64,000 bases of DNA from Planctomycetota bacterium (GTDB lineage Bacteria > Planctomycetota > Phycisphaerae > Phycisphaerales > Phycisphaeraceae): positions 1-64,000 of the forward strand of contig JAJRRS010000152.1 of NCBI GenBank assembly GCA_024279275.1, read 5' to 3'. The position numbers and the translations under genes were made by a program. Positions 34,424 to 59,761 of this stretch are shown piece by piece. How positions within the stretch are numbered: the first letter of the stretch is position 1; every line of letters begins with the position of its first letter. The notes beneath the pieces are model-generated. The model ran no database searches. It was not told where the DNA came from and saw only the letters and a program-made list of their open reading frames with translations.

Positions 34424-34975
34424 ATGACGAATCATGTCGCCATTCTCGACACGAGCATGACGGATGAGGTGAATATGAATAATATCATGCGGGAAAATCG
34501 TGGGGCGGTCTACCGTGTTTCCTTGGTCGTGGTGACAATGTTGGCGGTTGTTTGTGGGCTGCTATGGGTCGGATCGTATTTTGTAAATATCATGGCTGAC
34601 ATAGCGATGTCTTCTAGCACCGCGTGGATGGCTTCGGTGAATGTTGGTTCTCTGGAGTTTATTTACATCGATTCACTTCTGCCTGTGGCTTCCGGCTACA
34701 GATTTGAGTGGCACGGCGGGGGTTTTCTCCCAAGTCGTTTGTGGACATTCTATTGGCATGATCGTCCTTATGGATGGACAATGATGCTTCCTCTTTGGGT
34801 TCCTTTTCTGTTTCTATCTATCTGGCCGACCACCGCCACCGTACAGTGGCTTCGTGCCAAGCCAATTGTGGGCCTATGTACCGCTTGCGGCTACGACTTG
34901 CGAGGCTCCCCGTCAGGTGTGTGTCCTGAATGCGGAAAAGAACCGGTGCCCGAGCACGAAATCGGGCCAATCTAA
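34424..34975 (+). CDS. Hypothetical membrane protein with C-terminal zinc-ribbon
   Basis: TM segments; CTACGYDLRGSPSGVCPECGKEP; final residues and stop lie within a repeat unit. Confidence 0.7.
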   Translation: MTNHVAILDTSMTDEVNMNNIMRENRGAVYRVSLVVVTMLAVVCGLLWVGSYFVNIMADIAMSSSTAWMASVNVGSLEFIYIDSLLPVASGYRFEWHGGGFLPSRLWTFYWHDRPYGWTMMLPLWVPFLFLSIWPTTATVQWLRAKPIVGLCTACGYDLRGSPSGVCPECGKEPVPEHEIGPI

Positions 34976-35110
34976 GGGGTCGGGCCAATCTAAGGGGTCG
35001 GGAGTCGTATAATATCATATTGGCCAATCTAAGGCCAATCTAAGGGGTCGGGAGTCGTATAATATCATATTGGCCAATCTAAGGGGTCGGGAGTCGTATA
35101 ATATCATATT
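34965..35110 (+). repeat. Tandem/nested array of a 39-bp repeat
   Basis: GGCCAATCTAAGGGGTCGGGAGTCGTATAATATCATATT at 34983-35021, 35033-35071, 35072-35110, with partial units at 34965-34982 and 35022-35032. Confidence 0.97.
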
Positions 35111-35130: not shown

Positions 35131-35575
35131 CAAAAGGGGACGTTCTACTTTATCGGCAACGTAGTGGGGAGCAGAATAATGACCTGGCCTTGGTCTCCCT
35201 CTGTGCCTCCGTGCGCTCCGTGACACCGCCTTCTCTTGCTCGCCTCCCTCGGCGTCCTCCCCATCTTGGCGGTTCATCTTCTTAATCTGCGTCATCTGCG
35301 CAATCTGCGGACACCTCCCCCTCCGCCGTCTTCTCTGCGCACTCCGGGGATCAAAGGGGACATTCTACTTTATCAGCAACGTACCGTGGAGCAGAAAAGT
35401 GACCTGGCCTTTGCCTCCCTCCGTGCCTCTGTGCCTCCGTGCGTTCCGTGACACCGCCTTCTCTTGCTCGCCTCCCTCGGCGTCCTCCCCATCTTGGCGG
35501 TTCATCTTCTTAATCTACGTCATCTGCGAAATCTGCGGACACCTCCCCCTCCGCCGTCTTCTCTGCGCACTCCTC
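35131..35575 (+). repeat. ~220-228 bp tandem duplication beginning with an AAAGGGGAC(A/G)TTCTACTTTATC element
   Basis: Unit 1 from ~35131, unit 2 from ~35351; near-identical text with offset 220 then 228. Confidence 0.93.
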
Positions 35576-36068
35576 GTCTTGACGATTCATCCCACAAGCC
35601 AACACCGTGCGCACACGCGCGCCAAGTTTCCAATCAAAAATCCACCACGACACACAATTCCTTACCAACCCTGCCAGCACGACTTATTCTTGCCTGACTC
35701 ACGCCCAAACCACTTCCATGCGCACAAACCCGACGTTTCCACCAAGAGTGGAGACGCAACTTATCCTTGGAACTACTACTCCGGGGGCCGGGGGCCGGGG
35801 GGCGTCTGCCGACAACCTCACGACGGCGATCGTCAGCTACCCTGAGAATCCAAAGATTAAAAGGACCAGGACTCGAGGGCTGTTGTGACCGGGGATACCC
35901 GATCACAAACTTGGTAGCGGATCGCCCCGGCCAGATGACGGACTCACAGGACACGGGCTTGACCTGGTCCCCATGATCCCGCGCCTGCCGTTACCGCCGG
36001 AACCCCGTGAGGCTTTGGATTTCTGATTTATGATGTGTGAATGATGATTGAATGACCCGATCTTTAAA

Positions 36069-36239
36069 CACAGAGCGCACGGAGCCACAGAGTCACGGAG
36101 AAAAACAAGGCGGATAAACCACGACACAAAGCGCCGCGACTTGTCGCGTCCTCTTCATAATCTGTGTCATCTGCGCAATCTGCGGATACCTCCCCCTCCC
36201 CGTATTCCTCTGTGTCTCTGTGCCTCCGTGCGCTCCGTG
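36069..36239. repeat. Long imperfect inverted repeat of CACAGAG/CACGGAG oligomers with a CGCGACttGTCGCG hairpin inside
   Basis: Left arm 36069-36100 and right arm 36208-36239 are reverse complements at about 28/32 positions; hairpin at 36135-36148. Confidence 0.85.
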
Positions 36240-38950: not shown

Positions 38951-38983
38951 ACAGTATATGATTCTACGACTCCCGGCCCTTTT
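38951..38983 (-). repeat. Reverse-oriented copy of the GGGAGTCGTA-type element (left flank of AT-rich gene)
   Basis: Reverse complement AAAGGGCCGGGAGTCGTAGAATCATATACTG vs array AAGGGGTCGGGAGTCGTATAATATCATATTG. Confidence 0.8.
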
Positions 38984-39132
38984 TCCGGTCCTTCTCAAAA
39001 CAACTGGACCAAAGAACCCGAGGGGATCAGTGTACGGGTTGAAGCTCAAGCTGACGGTAGATTACTTACCTTGTGCTATCGCGTATGCTGCGGGTATCAT
39101 ATCTTGTCACTTTCACAAGACGGGGTCTATCT

Positions 39133-40143
39133 ATGACAGAATCTACCGAGACTACACCGCCAGCATCCAAACAGACCCCGAGCCAGCGGCCCCCGTCTAC
39201 TAATCGCTGGACACGCTTTGTCACTGTGTGGTTAGCACCCCTTACAGTAGGCTTGGTGTTTGTATTTGCAACTGCATATGCATTCGTATGGACAACAGAA
39301 TATTTGTCCCGCGTCAGGCATCTGTCATATCGCATTACAAAGAATGATGCAATAATGCCAACCGATAAAGTTGGCGGCGTTGATCTTGAGATTACAGCTA
39401 ATGGCCAGCAAGTAGATAATTTAAGTTTAGTTACTATAGAGTTGTTCAATAAGTCGGATCATAGCTTTACAGATATCGAACTAACAGTTGATTTCTCCGT
39501 AGATGATATTACACGCAAGAGCTTTGACACTGATGGTTGGGGTCTTCTTCCACTATCGGAAACAGATATACAAGGCTATCTCAATGTCAAAAGCAATCTG
39601 GCGGCTTATGAATCAACGATTCCTGATTATGGAAGTGCTATCCATCTGCTACAGTCCGCGCAGAATAAGATAGCATCCGAGTTGCGATCATCTAAAGAAT
39701 TTTCTGGCGATGTTGCAGTATGGTTTGATGCTGCTTTTAGAAATGCAATAGTTGGGCTGGATATTTCGTCATCTGCAAAGCGAATGTCTGATTTTGATTA
39801 TCGCATGGCTGTTCAAAGGCACTACAGAATCACGGTTGCCAATCACGGGGACGCCTCAATATTCAAGGCAACATATATCTTTGCCGCTCCAAAGGCACCA
39901 GATGTTAAACTTATTATGATAGAAGATGGATTAGACTTAGTAGAGCTACCAGAACTAGCGGATAGTCAGTACAGTTTCTTTGATAATCCCGTACCCGCGC
40001 TAGTCGGCGGTGCAATCGGCGGCTTTCTCGCTTTACTATTTTCGTTAAAGTATAGAGTGTCGGCTGAGCTAAATCTTATTGCTGACAGTCTGAAGGTTCT
40101 TATCAGCGCTAAGGATGGCAAACAGAATTCCAATTCAGACTAA
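39133..40143 (+). CDS. Hypothetical membrane protein, AT-rich, N- and C-terminal TM helices flanking a predicted ectodomain
   Basis: 336 aa; WLAPLTVGLVFVFATAYAFVW and VPALVGGAIGGFLALLFSL; visibly lower GC than neighbours. Confidence 0.75.
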   Translation: MTESTETTPPASKQTPSQRPPSTNRWTRFVTVWLAPLTVGLVFVFATAYAFVWTTEYLSRVRHLSYRITKNDAIMPTDKVGGVDLEITANGQQVDNLSLVTIELFNKSDHSFTDIELTVDFSVDDITRKSFDTDGWGLLPLSETDIQGYLNVKSNLAAYESTIPDYGSAIHLLQSAQNKIASELRSSKEFSGDVAVWFDAAFRNAIVGLDISSSAKRMSDFDYRMAVQRHYRITVANHGDASIFKATYIFAAPKAPDVKLIMIEDGLDLVELPELADSQYSFFDNPVPALVGGAIGGFLALLFSLKYRVSAELNLIADSLKVLISAKDGKQNSNSD

Positions 40144-51868: not shown

Positions 51869-53011
51869 TCACCTGCGTCGCAGCAGTGCTGTACCCCCAA
51901 AGGCGAGCAGCGACAATGTGCCCGGCTCGGGGATCACTGCGATAAAGGCTTCGCGGAGACCGTCGGGGTTGTTGCCAAAGCCCACGATAGTCAGGCCGTC
52001 GGCCGAGATACCGCTGGCATGCTCCAATTGCCAACCCGTCAGATTGAGGCCGAAATCGGTGGCCAGTATATCCTGCAACGAGCGCATGCCGTCGCCGGCC
52101 GTCCACAAAAACGCCTCAGGGCCGGATGCAGTATCGCCGCGTCCCACGATGACTGAACCGTCAGCCGACGTGGCAGACGCGCCGCTAGAGAAGATGCCGC
52201 CGGGCAGATCGCCTAGGCCGACCATCCCGCCGCCAGCCGTCCAACGAAACGCTTCAGGGCCAGATGATGTCTGGCTAAACCCCACGACGACCGCGCCGTC
52301 CGCCGACGTGGCAGACGCACTGCTAAGGTTGATGCCGCCGGGCAAACCGCCCAGACCAACCATCCCGCCGTCCAACGTCCAGCGAAATGCTTCCTCGTTG
52401 GGGAATGTGGTGGACCTGCCATGCCCCACGACGACTGAGCCATCGGCCGAGATGCCGTTCGCGGTGCTATTGAAACCGCCGCCGGACAGGTCGCCGAGGC
52501 TGAGCATGCCGCCGCCGACCGTCCAGCGAAATGCCTCGAAGCCGGATGCATTAATGCCTTGCCCCACGACGACCGAGCCGTCCGCCGAGGTGGCAATCGC
52601 ATTCTGAAAGAAGGTGTTGTCGAGAGGATCGCCCAGGCCGATCATGCCACCGCCGACCGTCCAGCGAAACGCCTCGGAACCGTTTGCGGAAATACTACCT
52701 ATCCCCACGACGACCGAACCGTCGGATGAAACGGCGTTGGCAAAGCTATTGAACTGGCCACCTGCCAAGTCGTCCAGACCGACCATACCGCCAGCCGCTG
52801 TCCAGCGAAACGCCTCAGCGCCGGATGCGGAAATGCCCTTCCCCACGACGACCGAGCCGTCCGCCGAGACGCTTTCCGCTCTACTAGAAAAAATGTTACC
52901 AGGCAGGTCGCCCAAGCCCTGGAAATTGGCGGCCATCGCCGCGCCAGGCATCGCCACGGCCACAACCAACACGCACGGGAAGATCCCGATCTGAACATTA
53001 AAACAACGCAT
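51869..53011 (-). CDS. HAF-repeat PEP-CTERM protein
   Basis: Tandem ADGSVVVGxGxxxxGxEAFRWTxxGGMxGLGDLxGG repeats; C-term VIPEPGTLSLLAFGGTALLRRR. Confidence 0.92.
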   Translation of the reverse strand: MRCFNVQIGIFPCVLVVAVAMPGAAMAANFQGLGDLPGNIFSSRAESVSADGSVVVGKGISASGAEAFRWTAAGGMVGLDDLAGGQFNSFANAVSSDGSVVVGIGSISANGSEAFRWTVGGGMIGLGDPLDNTFFQNAIATSADGSVVVGQGINASGFEAFRWTVGGGMLSLGDLSGGGFNSTANGISADGSVVVGHGRSTTFPNEEAFRWTLDGGMVGLGGLPGGINLSSASATSADGAVVVGFSQTSSGPEAFRWTAGGGMVGLGDLPGGIFSSGASATSADGSVIVGRGDTASGPEAFLWTAGDGMRSLQDILATDFGLNLTGWQLEHASGISADGLTIVGFGNNPDGLREAFIAVIPEPGTLSLLAFGGTALLRRR

Positions 53012-53108
53012 CGCGTAACTCCTTTTCTTAGACGTTGCCACAGCAAATCAAAGTGGTGGCAACGTCCATGTTAATTTTGAAGGTTTGTATTCTTACTTAC
53101 GTTCTATC

Positions 53109-54443
53109 TCAACCGCCTGAGGCCGCCAACCGCCGACGATGCAGCAGGGCCACGACGCCACCCAAAGCTAACAGCGATAGTGTCCCGGGCTCGGGGACTA
53201 CCGATCCTGTAAGATTTAGGGTCAGGACTTGACCACCCACTGCTCCGACTAAATCCTGATCAGACAGAGTTAGTAAATATGTAGCGTCGAATGTACCAAG
53301 TGTGCTGGTATCAAAGAAGGCAGAAAGATTCTGGCTTGAACCAGCAGCCAAGTTGGAAAAAGTCGCCATATCTGTAGTCAACACACCTACATCGCCGCTA
53401 GGCGCGATACTATCCAAGTCCAGCCCAGCAGTGAAGCCCGCAGTCGCCAAGAGATTTGAAAGGCTAAAAGACTCACTCAATGAGTCGATGTTTGCGGCAA
53501 TTGAGCCAAAGTCAATTGTCAGCACGTTCTGGTCTGCTGCGCTACTGAACGACGCATTGGCATGATCCAATATAGTCGCAGAAACAGAAATCAAGTCATC
53601 GGGATCATCGCTGCCCAAAGCAGATCCGGCCGAGGTGGAGGCCAGATTGTCGAGCACAACGTCGCCGCTCTTATTGCCTGCCGTCGATGTATTGACTCCG
53701 ATAGTTAAAGGCAAGGTGACACTACCACTTGCCAAACCTTGGGATCCATTGGGTGAAACGGTCACATCAGTACTAGTCGTGTTGATGCCCACAGTTGTAC
53801 TCTGGGTACCTGTCTTACTCAATAAGACACCACTATTACTTAGGTTTGCACCGACAATTGCTGTTCCAAAGTTGATGGGCCCGTTTGCAGTTATAAGAGT
53901 GTTATTGCCTGGGAGGGCCGTTCCTGAAAATTGGATCTCAGAATACTCAACTCGTGATGTACCATCAGAAGCTGTTAGGGGTGTGAAAATAAAGGAGCGA
54001 ATACCGTTGAAGCCCTGCGTGCTGATGTTGTACTCAACTAGCGTTGTAGGGTTGGTTTGTGTATCGAAATATGTAGTGCCAATCTGACTTCCAGTAGCAT
54101 CGGGCTCATTAAAGAATGCTAGCTGAAAAGAAGAGACCGCATTAAGTGAGTTAGAGCCATGTTCACCCAGTAGAAAGAATGAATCAAGATCATAGTTTTG
54201 ATTGAAGTTGTATGTGACACTCACTGGCAAAAAGTCTATCGAAACACCATTGTTCACAGGGGTCATGCCAGGTAAGTCTAAAATACCATCGACAGTTTGG
54301 GCAAATGATCCGGAAGGAATCGATTCAACACCGCTAGCGCTGGAAAATGATATTTGGCCCGGCCCTGTGATTGTCCCCGCGCCGTTCGCTGATTGGAAAG
54401 TGATGAGAAATACTAAAGCAGTAAAGATACTGATGCGTTTCAT
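53109..54443 (-). CDS. PEP-CTERM sorting domain protein
   Basis: Signal peptide MKRISIFTALVFLITFQSANGA; C-term VVPEPGTLSLLALGGVVALLHRRR. Confidence 0.9.
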   Translation of the reverse strand: MKRISIFTALVFLITFQSANGAGTITGPGQISFSSASGVESIPSGSFAQTVDGILDLPGMTPVNNGVSIDFLPVSVTYNFNQNYDLDSFFLLGEHGSNSLNAVSSFQLAFFNEPDATGSQIGTTYFDTQTNPTTLVEYNISTQGFNGIRSFIFTPLTASDGTSRVEYSEIQFSGTALPGNNTLITANGPINFGTAIVGANLSNSGVLLSKTGTQSTTVGINTTSTDVTVSPNGSQGLASGSVTLPLTIGVNTSTAGNKSGDVVLDNLASTSAGSALGSDDPDDLISVSATILDHANASFSSAADQNVLTIDFGSIAANIDSLSESFSLSNLLATAGFTAGLDLDSIAPSGDVGVLTTDMATFSNLAAGSSQNLSAFFDTSTLGTFDATYLLTLSDQDLVGAVGGQVLTLNLTGSVVPEPGTLSLLALGGVVALLHRRRLAASGG

Positions 54444-55170: not shown

Positions 55171-55502
55171 TCAGTTGTCCGCCTGGTAGCGGACCAGTTC
55201 TGCCCAGATTTCGTGGCGAAGTTCTTTGACGGGTTTGTTGGAGCCGGTGTAGCCGTTGGCGAGGAAGGAGAAGGCGAGCCATTGGTTGTCGAGGGTTTTG
55301 ATGTAGCCGGAGATGGTGGAGACGCCGGTCATGCCGCCGGTTTTGGCGAAGACGCGCTTGGGGTTGTAGTCGGTGAGTGGTTTGTGGTTCCAGGTTGCGT
55401 CGTCGGGGATCTCAACTTTGTAGATGGGTAGGCCGTCGAAGAAAGGGGCGAAGTGTGGGTGGGTTTTCATGAATGCGAGGAGCTTGCCGGGCGAGTCGGG
55501 AT
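55171..55502 (-). pseudogene. Truncated duplicate of dacB 3' end
   Basis: KTHPHFAPFFDGLPIYKVEIPDDATWNHKPLTDYNPKRVFAKTGGMTGVSTISGYIKTLDNQWLAFSFLANGYTGSNKPVKELRHEIWAELVRY matches the C-terminus of the 57953-59425 gene; homology stops near 55500. Confidence 0.93.
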
Positions 55503-55520
55503 AGAAAAGGGTCTGCTCTG

Positions 55521-55548
55521 CGTTAAAGTAGAATGTCCCCTTTGATTT
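55521..55548 (-). repeat. Reverse copy of AAAGGGGACATTCTACTTTAA element
   Basis: Plus strand TTAAAGTAGAATGTCCCCTTTGA. Confidence 0.92.
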
Positions 55549-55703
55549 CCCGACCGAGGTGTTGTCCGCTTTACCCGGTGTTGCGCTTCGGAATTGAATC
55601 CGCCGGGTGTGAGGTTTTTATTTGAAGCGATCCACCAGTCCACGAGCAAACACCGGTCGCTAGGAAGCGGTGCGGTCTTGTAGCCGTTGAGATGGACGGA
55701 TGC

Positions 55704-57548
55704 CTAAGCCGGAATTGGCGAAGAACCCTGCCGTCGAGTCAACAGACCCAACGAGGACAACCCCAAGCAAACCAGCGATGCGGGTTCCGGAATGTTAGCG
55801 GTAACGCTCGGCGGGGTACCCGCGTTCCAGTTGCCCAAAACGGCGTTGAGATCGTCGATACCGACGAAGCCGTCACCGCTGGGGTCCGCCAGCGGGTTGG
55901 CGGGCGGGACGTTCTGATTCCAGTTACTCAACACGATGTTCAGGTCGGCGATGCCCACGAAGCCGTCGCCATCGAGGTCGCCGGTCAGACTGGTAAAGCC
56001 ACTGCTGGCCACACCCGATCGGCCGTCAAGCAGGCGGAAATGATAGGCGACCTGGCCGAGGTTGTTCAGGCCGCCGCGCTCGGCGCGGTTGGAGACGCCG
56101 CTGTGGCTGAAGGACAGGTCGGTGATGGTGCTGCCCAGCAGGGCATCGCCCTCTCGGACGACCAGGCGCAGGCCGAGGATATCGTCGTACAGGAAGATGC
56201 CCGTGTCATCGAAGGTCGCGCCGCTGGTGCCGGAGAGGGAGCTTTTGAACGCCACCTGCCCGGCGTCGTTGATCGCGGGCTCCCCCATGTTCAAGCTAGA
56301 GAAGGTGCCGTTGCCATCGGGCGAGGCCTGGCCTTCGCGGACGATCTGGGTGAGCGTCAAGCCATCGCTGCGGAAGATGCCCGCGTTGTCGCTGGACCCG
56401 CCGCTGGTGCCGACGAAGGCGCCGAAGAACGCCACCTGCCCGGCCTCGTTGAGCGCGGGGTTGATGCTGAAAGCCTGCCACCGAAAACTGTCGAAGGTGC
56501 CATTGCCGTCTGGTGCCGCCTGGCCTTTACGGACGATTCGGACGAGATTGCCGGGGGTGTCGGGGGTGCCGGGGGTGCCGGGGGTGCCGTCGCCTCGGAA
56601 GATACCCTCATTGTCGCTGGAGCCGCCACTGGTGCCGGTGAATATGGCTATGAACGCCGTCTGCTGGGCATCGTTGAACGCGGGGGCTAGAAATTGGGAG
56701 AAGACGCCGTTGCCATCGAGCGCAAAATCGTCCTTCTCGACGATTTGAGTGGGCGTGGTGATGCCGTTGCCGTGGAAGATGCCTTTCCCGGCGCCGAAGA
56801 CGTCCGTGCGGCCCGAGAACGCCACCTGGCCGTTCTGGTTCAGAGTGACCACGGCGCTGAATCCGCTGAAACCGCCGCCCGTGATCGCGGGGTCGCCTGC
56901 GCGGACGATCCGGGTGAGCGTGGCACCGTCGCTGCGGAAGATGCCCAGTTTGGCCCCGACGGTGCCGGCGAAGCCGCCGCGGAACGCCACCTGCCCGGCG
57001 TCGTTGAGCGTGGGGGTAAACAAGGCAAAGTTGAAGCTGCCGTTGCCATCGGGTGCGGCCTGGCCTTCGCGGACGATCTGGGCGAGGCCTGCGGGGGTGC
57101 CGTCGCTGCGGAAGATGCCCGTGTCATCGCCGGACCCGCCGGAAGTGCCGGTGAGGGAGGTGAGGAACGCCACCTGCCCGGCGTTGTTGAGCGCGGGGAT
57201 CTTGCTGGAAGAGAGGAAATTGGCGAAGCTGCCATTGCCGTTGGGTACGCTCTGGCCTTCGCGAGCGATCTGGCTAAGCGTGGTCCCGTTGCCGAGGAAG
57301 ATGCCCGTGTCATCGCTGGACCCGCCGGAAGTGCCGGTGAGGGCGCTGAAGAACACCGCCTGCCCGGCATCGTTGAACGCGGGCCCAAGGAGAAAGATGG
57401 AGCCAATGGTGCCGTTGCCATCCGGCGCCGCGTCACCGCTGACGGCGATGACTTGGGTGGTCGTCTGGGCGGGGGCCGACACGCACAGGGTTAACAAACA
57501 CACGACAGCACAGACGCGGCCAATCCGCTGAGAAGAAGTGATAAGCAT
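55704..57548 (-). CDS. NxxGxxAF-type tandem-repeat protein with dockerin-like repeats and PEP-CTERM
   Basis: Repeated NDAGQVAFxxxxxGTSGGSxDDxGIFRSDG...VREGQAAPDGNG; GDLDGDGFVGIADLNIVLSNWN; NIPEPASLVCLGLSSLGLLTRR. Confidence 0.93.
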   Translation of the reverse strand: MLITSSQRIGRVCAVVCLLTLCVSAPAQTTTQVIAVSGDAAPDGNGTIGSIFLLGPAFNDAGQAVFFSALTGTSGGSSDDTGIFLGNGTTLSQIAREGQSVPNGNGSFANFLSSSKIPALNNAGQVAFLTSLTGTSGGSGDDTGIFRSDGTPAGLAQIVREGQAAPDGNGSFNFALFTPTLNDAGQVAFRGGFAGTVGAKLGIFRSDGATLTRIVRAGDPAITGGGFSGFSAVVTLNQNGQVAFSGRTDVFGAGKGIFHGNGITTPTQIVEKDDFALDGNGVFSQFLAPAFNDAQQTAFIAIFTGTSGGSSDNEGIFRGDGTPGTPGTPDTPGNLVRIVRKGQAAPDGNGTFDSFRWQAFSINPALNEAGQVAFFGAFVGTSGGSSDNAGIFRSDGLTLTQIVREGQASPDGNGTFSSLNMGEPAINDAGQVAFKSSLSGTSGATFDDTGIFLYDDILGLRLVVREGDALLGSTITDLSFSHSGVSNRAERGGLNNLGQVAYHFRLLDGRSGVASSGFTSLTGDLDGDGFVGIADLNIVLSNWNQNVPPANPLADPSGDGFVGIDDLNAVLGNWNAGTPPSVTANIPEPASLVCLGLSSLGLLTRRQGSSPIPA

Positions 57549-57762
57549 GTAATAGTCCGCCCTTAATATGGCCCGTCAGATAGGCCTTGGATAGGAAACC
57601 ACCCGGGTGCCCGCCTCCCCGCAGGCCGAACGCCAACCCGACCCGAGTCGCCCTGATCGTACAGCACAACGGTCTGTAATGATAGAAAAATCTCAGTTTA
57701 ATAAGACGGCAAAAACGTGTTAACATCGCCACCAAACATGCGAAGCCAACACCGCCCAGCGC

Positions 57763-57795
57763 ACAAAAAAGCCCGCCCCAAGGAGGACGGGTCCA
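57763..57795 (-). terminator. Probable Rho-independent terminator downstream of dacB
   Basis: Minus strand ACCCGTCCtccttgGGGCGGGCTTTTTT; imperfect stem plus T6. Confidence 0.6.
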
Positions 57796-57867
57796 ATCCT
57801 GTTTGGCATGGCGGTTGCCGGTTTTTGTGGCTGGGGGCAGATCGTCGCCGTGAGTGCGTTGGGGGAA

Positions 57868-57893
57868 TTCAAAGGGGACATTCTGCTTTAATC
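57868..57893 (+). repeat. Forward copy of AAAGGGGACATTCT(A/G)CTTTAA element
   Basis: TTCAAAGGGGACATTCTGCTTTAATC. Confidence 0.92.
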
Positions 57894-57952
57894 TGGCCAA
57901 CCGTCGCTATTACTATCCTATTTGCTGCCGTAGAAAAGATGGATGGCTAATT

Positions 57953-59425
57953 TTAATTGCCCGGGCTATCTGTGGGGCTGTAGCGGATCAGCTCTGTCCA
58001 GATTTCGTTGCGTAATTCTTTGACGGGTTTGCTGGAGCCGGTGTAGCCGTTGGCGAGGAAGGAGAAGGCGAGCCATTGGTTGTCGAGGGTTTTGATGTAG
58101 CCGGAGATGGTGGAGACGCCGGTCATGCCGCCGGTTTTGGCGAAGACGCGTTTTGGGTCGTAGTGGGTGATTGGTTTGTTGTTCCACGTTTCGTTGTCAA
58201 GGAGTGGGACTTTGTAGATGGGTAGGCCGTCGAAGAAGGGGGCGAAGTGTTTGTGGGTTTTCATGAATGCCAGGAGCTTGACGGACGAGTCTGCGGAGAT
58301 GAGGTTGTAGCGGGAGAGGCCTGACCCGTCGACGAGGCGGAAGGAGCCTGGTTCCAGGCCGGCGGTGTTGGTCAGCCAGTCGGTGATGACTTTGGCGCCG
58401 GCGGGCCAACTTACATCGCCATCGGTTTGTGTTTCCGCGAGTTTTAGAAGCACCATTTCGCCGACGGCGTTTTCGCTGACTTTCAGGAAATGGCGAAGGG
58501 CTTCTGCGAGGTTTTCGCCTTCACGAGAAGTCAGCGTATGCCTTAATAACTCATCGCGTGCACAACCCGTCACAAACTTAACCCCTCGTTCTTCCAACAT
58601 CTGCTTAAACACCGATGCGATCCATGGGAAGGGGTCGTGCATCGTAATTGTCTCACGCACCGGGTCGCTCCCGGGTTTTAGTACACCGGTGACATGGATG
58701 GCCTCCTCGAAAGATTCACGCTCAATTCTGATCCCCATGTCATCAGTGTTATTCGGAGTCACGACGACAACCGGGGGCCAACTTGTTGCAGGTTCTAGTA
58801 CCACTGAAATACCGCCAGCACTGGGGCTGACCACCACGTCCAGTGTATTGAAGTTCAGCATGACCGATCGGATGGACATGTTGTAGTAGTCGGGGTCGTC
58901 GTCCCACATCCAGCCGGGGCCTTTGATGGGCACGTTTTGCCAGCGTGGCGATGTTGCGACACTTACACCGCCGTATACCTTTGTGAGCTTGTGTTTGTTT
59001 ACCAACTCGTTTGCCATCTGTGATAATTGTTCAGTATCCAGCATCGGATCACCCGTACCCCCGATGACCAGATCACTGGAACTTACGCCATCCCGGATAG
59101 GCACCTGGGCACCAACCTGCGTTGTCCATGTGTAGTCCGGGCCGAGCAGGTCGAGTGCGGCGGCGGCGGTGTAGATTTTGAGGTTGGATGCGGGGATGAG
59201 GAGTCGGTCGCCGCCGCGGTCGTAGAGGACTTCGCCGGTTTCAAGATCGACGACCTTGAGAGTGAGGGTGGTGCGCCGGGCGGCGGAGCTGTTGTCCAGG
59301 AGGGTGTTGAGGGTCTGGGTTAACGCGCTGGCGTCGAGGGGTTCGATGGCGTGGGCGGTATTTACAACCGTCAGGCTGTAGGTGGCGATCACGATGGACA
59401 ACAAGAAGGTTTTGGCGGCCTGCAT
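57953..59425 (-). CDS. dacB: D-alanyl-D-alanine carboxypeptidase/endopeptidase (PBP4 family)
   Basis: LLIPASNLKIYTAAAALDLLGPDYTW (SxxK), LVDGSGLSRYNLIS (SxN-like region), FAKTGGMTGVSTISGY (KTG). Confidence 0.95.
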   Translation of the reverse strand: MQAAKTFLLSIVIATYSLTVVNTAHAIEPLDASALTQTLNTLLDNSSAARRTTLTLKVVDLETGEVLYDRGGDRLLIPASNLKIYTAAAALDLLGPDYTWTTQVGAQVPIRDGVSSSDLVIGGTGDPMLDTEQLSQMANELVNKHKLTKVYGGVSVATSPRWQNVPIKGPGWMWDDDPDYYNMSIRSVMLNFNTLDVVVSPSAGGISVVLEPATSWPPVVVVTPNNTDDMGIRIERESFEEAIHVTGVLKPGSDPVRETITMHDPFPWIASVFKQMLEERGVKFVTGCARDELLRHTLTSREGENLAEALRHFLKVSENAVGEMVLLKLAETQTDGDVSWPAGAKVITDWLTNTAGLEPGSFRLVDGSGLSRYNLISADSSVKLLAFMKTHKHFAPFFDGLPIYKVPLLDNETWNNKPITHYDPKRVFAKTGGMTGVSTISGYIKTLDNQWLAFSFLANGYTGSSKPVKELRNEIWTELIRYSPTDSPGN

Positions 59426-59761
59426 ATCGACATACTCCGGTAAACAAGAGTGGTTGATGTTCCGAGTCTGCGGCATGATACCCGGCGCGCAGGAGGTGGC
59501 ACAACACCGGGTCGATCAGGCGGTGGTTAAGTCGAACCGTTGTTTTACGAATTGACTGATACCAATCGCGTAAATAACTCGTGCGGTAATGCGTGACACC
59601 GTTCCCACGTTCTACAGAACGTGGGCTTCGCAGGGGCATGAAGATTAAATGGGATTGGTATGAATGCGGTGAAGAACCAGCGGATACCCCGCCGAAGCAC
59701 CGGGGCGGTGCATCAGCGGGCTTCTGCCAGAGCTATCTTGATGTCCGCTCGGACGCGGTGT

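Follow-up and report, generated by a model that had tools for sequence, protein, structure and literature searches.

The closest described relatives of the repeat studied here are the TIRtron/TIRYT elements, whose inverted repeats share the motif GGGGWSAS and are also found as dimers and clusters (Di Nocera et al. 2013, PMC3733652). TIRYT corresponds to Y1 subclass 2.1, or RAYT group 1, and Y1 class 2 transposases occur in about a quarter of surveyed species (PMC6006769). RAYT/TIRYT transposases are known as movers of their own short repeats, not of other genes, and in the parts of PMC3733652 and PMC6006769 that describe TIRtrons and TIRYTs no mention of passenger genes was found. REPINs (PMC3116915, PMC2817692) are short hairpin dimers, mobile through a Y1 transposase acting in trans and built from GTAG/GGAG-tagged REP palindromes in inverted pairs. 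Composite transposons carry their cargo between two whole insertion sequences. In mobile insertion cassettes, the ends keep the transposon's own orientation. These cassettes, or transporter IS (e.g. the qnrS2 MIC, PMC5444012), hold a passenger between transposon-like ends, with the transposase located elsewhere.

Behind dacB in the window (the whole 64-kb stretch of DNA analysed), we found the following features:

51869-53041 and 53109-54443 (51869-54443), minus strand: two further PEP-CTERM genes, in the same lineage-specific insertion, missing from the dacB-glycosyltransferase junction of genome G003
55171-55497, minus strand: 3' fragment of dacB (Peptidase_S13) with its own stop codon, without the 5' part
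55498-55553, minus strand: apparently decayed two-armed terminal-repeat element, with one arm at 55525-55543 and a second at about 55498-55516 carrying a 5-nt deletion; its outer edge abuts the dacB fragment
55704-57548, minus strand: cargo gene, a DUF7453 repeat protein of 614 aa with a dockerin-like and PEP-CTERM tail
57861-57891, plus strand: lone terminal-repeat arm at the cassette end that faces dacB, forming a 29-nt inverted repeat with 55523-55551
57953-59476, minus strand: intact dacB, possibly starting from the ATG at 59425; orthologues in G003, G004 and G005

The inverted repeat (55523-55551 and 57863-57891) is complementary at 27 of 29 positions and encloses one intact gene, 55704-57548, which matches Pfam DUF7453 (E=1.4e-82) and whose PEP-CTERM tail scores slightly below the cut-off (19.7 vs 20.7 bits). 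The best boundary inverted-repeat score of this cassette is 23, while shuffles reach 11 at most. The original prediction of inverted element copies around a PEP-CTERM gene was borne out, as was the claim that their heads face inward, the GGGG ends pointing to the gene. A 17-mer of the element occurs five times in the window when up to 3 mismatches are allowed (0.11 expected), and the whole 3.76 Mb genome holds eight copies of the element with up to 2 mismatches, compared to one match of the reversed pattern.

In a transposon family of RAYT/TIRYT-type Y1 (HUH, IS200-like) elements, this repeated element is one of the terminal arms; it thus marks the end of an already described kind of transposon, not the private cassette boundary that it had been taken for. 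Scanning GTDB contigs for a 20-mer of it yielded at least 115 stretches, which among the matches listed were mostly from Planctomycetota, with some from Nitrospira and Proteobacteria, and often lay at contig ends, a position typical of repeats. The distribution is patchy, with the motif present in 12 of 395 genomes of a sample of the phylum and the reversed control pattern in none. Over 216 distinct contexts, conservation does not reach beyond the 19-nt arm except for a weakly conserved GG some 8 nt further out. The arm reads GGGGACAT, fits the GGGGWSAS motif of PMC3733652 at 7 of 8 positions, and is found in three settings. In many MAGs, two arms with heads inward, about 710 bp apart from start to start (a unit of about 730 bp), enclose a gene for a Y1_Tnp / REP-associated tyrosine transposase (REP_Tyr_transpos), and the arm forms both ends of such transposase units across phyla. 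Hairpin dimers, consisting of two arms around a short loop, are also common, and in the third setting the arms point in the opposite direction with a gene between them. In the host genome, the sole RAYT whose ends are known, on contig C81, carries a sister motif, and no intact transposase shown to own the exact motif was found there. The exact motif did not turn up in the literature searched.

Two units with this same arm (L223 and L104) resemble TIRYTs as outlined in PMC3733652 and PMC6006769, in that inverted repeats flank a Y1 transposase gene (Y1_Tnp E<1e-13 in both), and the additional occurrence of the repeats as dimers and clusters is shared with those outlined in PMC3733652. The window cassette differs from a TIRYT in lacking a transposase, and the arms here bracket unrelated genes in reverse geometry. 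The hairpin dimers recall REPINs, but the arm consensus has neither a GTAG foot nor a GTAG/GGAG tag, the arm itself is no REP palindrome, and a cargo is present. As in mobile insertion cassettes, a passenger lies between transposon-like ends without an adjoining transposase, whereas the window cassette, like the other boxes described below, has a geometry that is inverted (inside out) relative to the transposon's own. Unlike the cargo of a composite transposon, the window gene is flanked by an arm and a decayed dimer only. Integron cassette arrays are characterised by attC sites and an integron integrase, and around the boxed genes inspected no integrase gene was noticed. The element type is already known; the bracketing use of its arms seems to be a new variant, and hints at a little-noticed form of gene movement.

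A covariance model (R1), trained on 19 dimers taken from other genomes, matches 55496-55553 with 26.7 bits and an E-value of 3.2e-6 for the local 3.5 kb, or 2.3e-4 when 257 kb are searched; the model ends at 55496 and the element proper at 55498. Despite its 5-nt deletion, the second arm of this copy scores above random local DNA (p=0.004), and the copy therefore appears to be a dimer. Its hairpin folds no better than shuffles, marking it as a fossil. At the 57.9-kb copy, no second arm is recognisable by either the covariance model (8.3 bits, E=0.51) or the arm score (p=0.64). The segment 55537-55610, adjoining the left element, recurs with 85-88% identity at C174:14243 and G004:C20:10874 and represents a separate short repeat family in the genus.

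The genome G003 (same genus; dacB protein 72% identical) is collinear with the window on both sides of the locus. Its gene order is T2SSE-dacB-glycosyltransferase, with 52 bp separating the stop codons of dacB and the glycosyltransferase gene, and this empty junction identifies the window arrangement as a lineage-specific insertion of about 6.1 kb. The extra DNA comprises the cassette, the dacB fragment, about 0.7 kb of non-coding DNA and the two further PEP-CTERM genes, such that the insertion is larger than the cassette; its lineage-specific nature supports the original interpretation. The proposed synteny check in relatives thus produced a junction without the cassette in G003, but no relative with a tandem dacB. 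Mobility of the window cargo is plausible but unproven here, because this cargo is GC-rich (0.634 vs 0.578 for its surroundings) and its homologues elsewhere are unboxed, with no motif found near those in G030 and G041.

The dacB fragment and the intact gene both match Peptidase_S13. Their nucleotide alignment, suggested in the original prediction, shows a direct repeat of 300 nt in which the fragment shares 91% identity with 57980-58279 (28 of 300 sites differ), and maps the breakpoint to 55497 rather than to about 55502. The homology thus breaks at the element as predicted, and does so exactly at its outer edge; the 63 bases before 55497 hold no dacB similarity. A protein-level match from 55512, by which dacB homology would run into the element, was rejected, since the nucleotides there fit the second arm and there is no further match upstream. 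The event is not recent, as the fragment is 9% diverged and ends in a divergent C-terminus and stop codon of its own. It had been suggested that a cassette either replaced most of a second dacB copy or duplicated its end; with no tandem dacB in any relative, these two options are inseparable. A related scenario, in which a tandem duplication of dacB came first and a deletion starting from the outer edge of the element then left only the 3' quarter of the second copy, is in our judgement close to an even call, falling slightly short of it. It would account for the start of the fragment at the element edge, for its separate C-terminus and stop codon, and for the approximately equal distance of fragment and intact dacB from G003, G004 and G005, but its duplicated intermediate appears in no relative, and the deletion endpoint is not datable.

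A search for other genes bracketed alike, also proposed originally, found them in the same genome and in several others, and the similar cassette claimed at 39-40 kb is real, with a 23-nt inverted repeat of a related but different motif:

38969-38991, minus strand: left arm of the 39-kb cassette, with a CGGGAGT motif akin to the C81 transposon ends
39073-40143, plus strand: cargo of this cassette, an orphan membrane protein of 356 aa
40162-40184, plus strand: right arm of this cassette
L217, in the congener G004: box of the same geometry
L219, in G041 (another family): box of the same geometry, GC 0.50 vs 0.65
L225, in G363: box of the same geometry, both ends intact dimers
L222/L125, in G425: box of the same geometry, dimers at both ends
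L114, L109, L049, L055, L071 and L127, MAG loci: boxes of the same geometry

The 39-40 kb box has an inverted-repeat score of 14 (null maximum 9) and a GC content of 0.442 compared to 0.575 around it, and the sister motif that bounds its orphan gene is that of the C81 RAYT unit ends. On contig C87 of the same genome, a methyltransferase and a glycosyltransferase gene are boxed (score 18, null maximum 10), and a truncated RAYT start adjoins one end of this cassette, just outside. An ankyrin gene on C174 was considered as a third box and dropped, its right end scoring 7 against a null mean of 7.6, with no significant inverted repeat.

Could such boxes be real mobile arm-cargo-arm units that a Y1 transposase acting in trans excises and reinserts, their single arms arising by loop-cutting of two flanking dimers? 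Among 15 genomes with listed copies, five hold a total of six close '- ... +' pairs (up to 2.5 kb), whereas uniform placement predicts 0.085 for the 15; as repeats of this kind tend to cluster, this null is a generous one. Furthermore, at six ends of four boxes (the right ends of the window and C87 boxes, and both ends of the G004 and G041 boxes) the inner arm is almost perfect but an outer arm cannot be recognised. Decay alone hardly accounts for this pattern, which is the best hint, not proof, of arm-cargo-arm units. The cargo is of accessory type (Imm26, Imm35, SMI1/KNR4, SET, RDD, GNAT and orphan proteins), and in 12 of 18 cargo segments the GC content lies below that of the locus itself (Wilcoxon p=0.014); single genes boxed in several other genomes often look foreign. 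However, several boxed genes, including that of the window, are not GC-poor, clustering of repeat copies is known, and no cassette was found at two sites or as an otherwise identical pair of empty and occupied sites, such that we regard mobile units as rather unlikely.

Bracketing might instead be incidental, with short repeats landing side by side in intergenic slots that are accessory and GC-poor, and thereby flanking a resident gene, in which case the inverted geometry would arise automatically between neighbours. Neighbouring arm-RAYT-arm or dimer units indeed yield '- ... +' gaps by construction, and both orthologous slots tested, on C174 (L009 8029-10373) and C87 (L010 5588-8254), are hypervariable, holding different DNA in every congener with the locus assembled while the neighbouring genes are conserved. 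Their contents are mostly whole genes (the C174 slot of G003 is without a long ORF), and no significant box of any sequence was found in the relatives' slot contents. The close pairs are nevertheless too many for the copy number, and ends often lack the second arm expected from neighbouring intact units; we therefore consider incidental bracketing possible, while leaning against it. That the arms merely signal gene ends, for example as terminators with no tie to mobility, would fit their position near gene ends but is very improbable, as the same arm ends transposase units on both sides across phyla and, taken singly, does not have the form of a GC hairpin followed by a T-run.

Combined, these results are probably best explained by a DUF7453 gene that came to lie between two Y1-transposon element copies within a lineage-specific insertion behind dacB, the copies having moved in trans and the DNA beside the 55.5-kb copy having been rearranged. 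Under this explanation, a Y1 transposase acting in trans would move element copies, as arms or hairpin dimers; two copies would come to bracket the gene, either by insertion on each side or by movement of the segment as a unit; and rearrangement next to the 55.5-kb copy, possibly mediated by the element, would have left dacB homology beginning at its outer edge. In favour of this explanation are the recurrent arm-RAYT-arm units, the common dimers, the patchy motif, the G003 junction, the coincidence of edges and the truncated RAYT at C87. The data show what the element is, the bracket, the lineage-specific insertion and the fragment edge at the element edge, while the action in trans, the order of events and a role of the element in the breakpoint are inferred. 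Pointing the other way are the missing owner transposase, the decayed 55.5-kb hairpin, the extent of the insertion well beyond the cassette, the GC-richer cargo, the unboxed homologues in G030 and G041, and the unboxed C87 and C174 slots in relatives.

A more far-reaching proposal, which we think unlikely to hold, is that inside-out TIRYT-type Y1 arms define small cassettes, each with one or two genes of accessory type (such as those for immunity, SMI1, GNAT or orphan membrane proteins), which travel between Planctomycetota and other bacteria and are moved as single-stranded DNA by Y1 transposases in trans. Should RAYT/TIRYT ends indeed enclose and mobilise ordinary genes, gene exchange would become a further role of a common transposase family, and the recurrent boxes offer concrete loci for testing such movement.

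Further arrangements were noted. In the window, two tandem direct arm copies without a box (35133-35371, plus strand; arms at 35133-35151 and 35353-35371) lie next to 34960-35110, where GGCCAATCTAAGGGGTCGGGAGTCGTATAATATCATATT, the sister motif found at the ends of the C81 transposon, is repeated in tandem. A non-coding repeat of about 650 nt (about 70-75% identical) accompanies arms at window 35372-36230, L009 7502-8178 and L217 10078-10729. In an Alphaproteobacteria MAG (L078 220-3435), the same arms in native orientation surround 3.2 kb (GC 0.54 vs 0.75 around) with, as judged by eye, an IS1595-looking transposase and toxin/antitoxin-like small ORFs. A Schlesneria contig (L070 1-6407) has identical 141-nt ends with a RAYT inside, and is either a circle or a repeat-bounded contig; its repeated end holds a hairpin with the GGGGACAGGC motif and a tRNA-like end.
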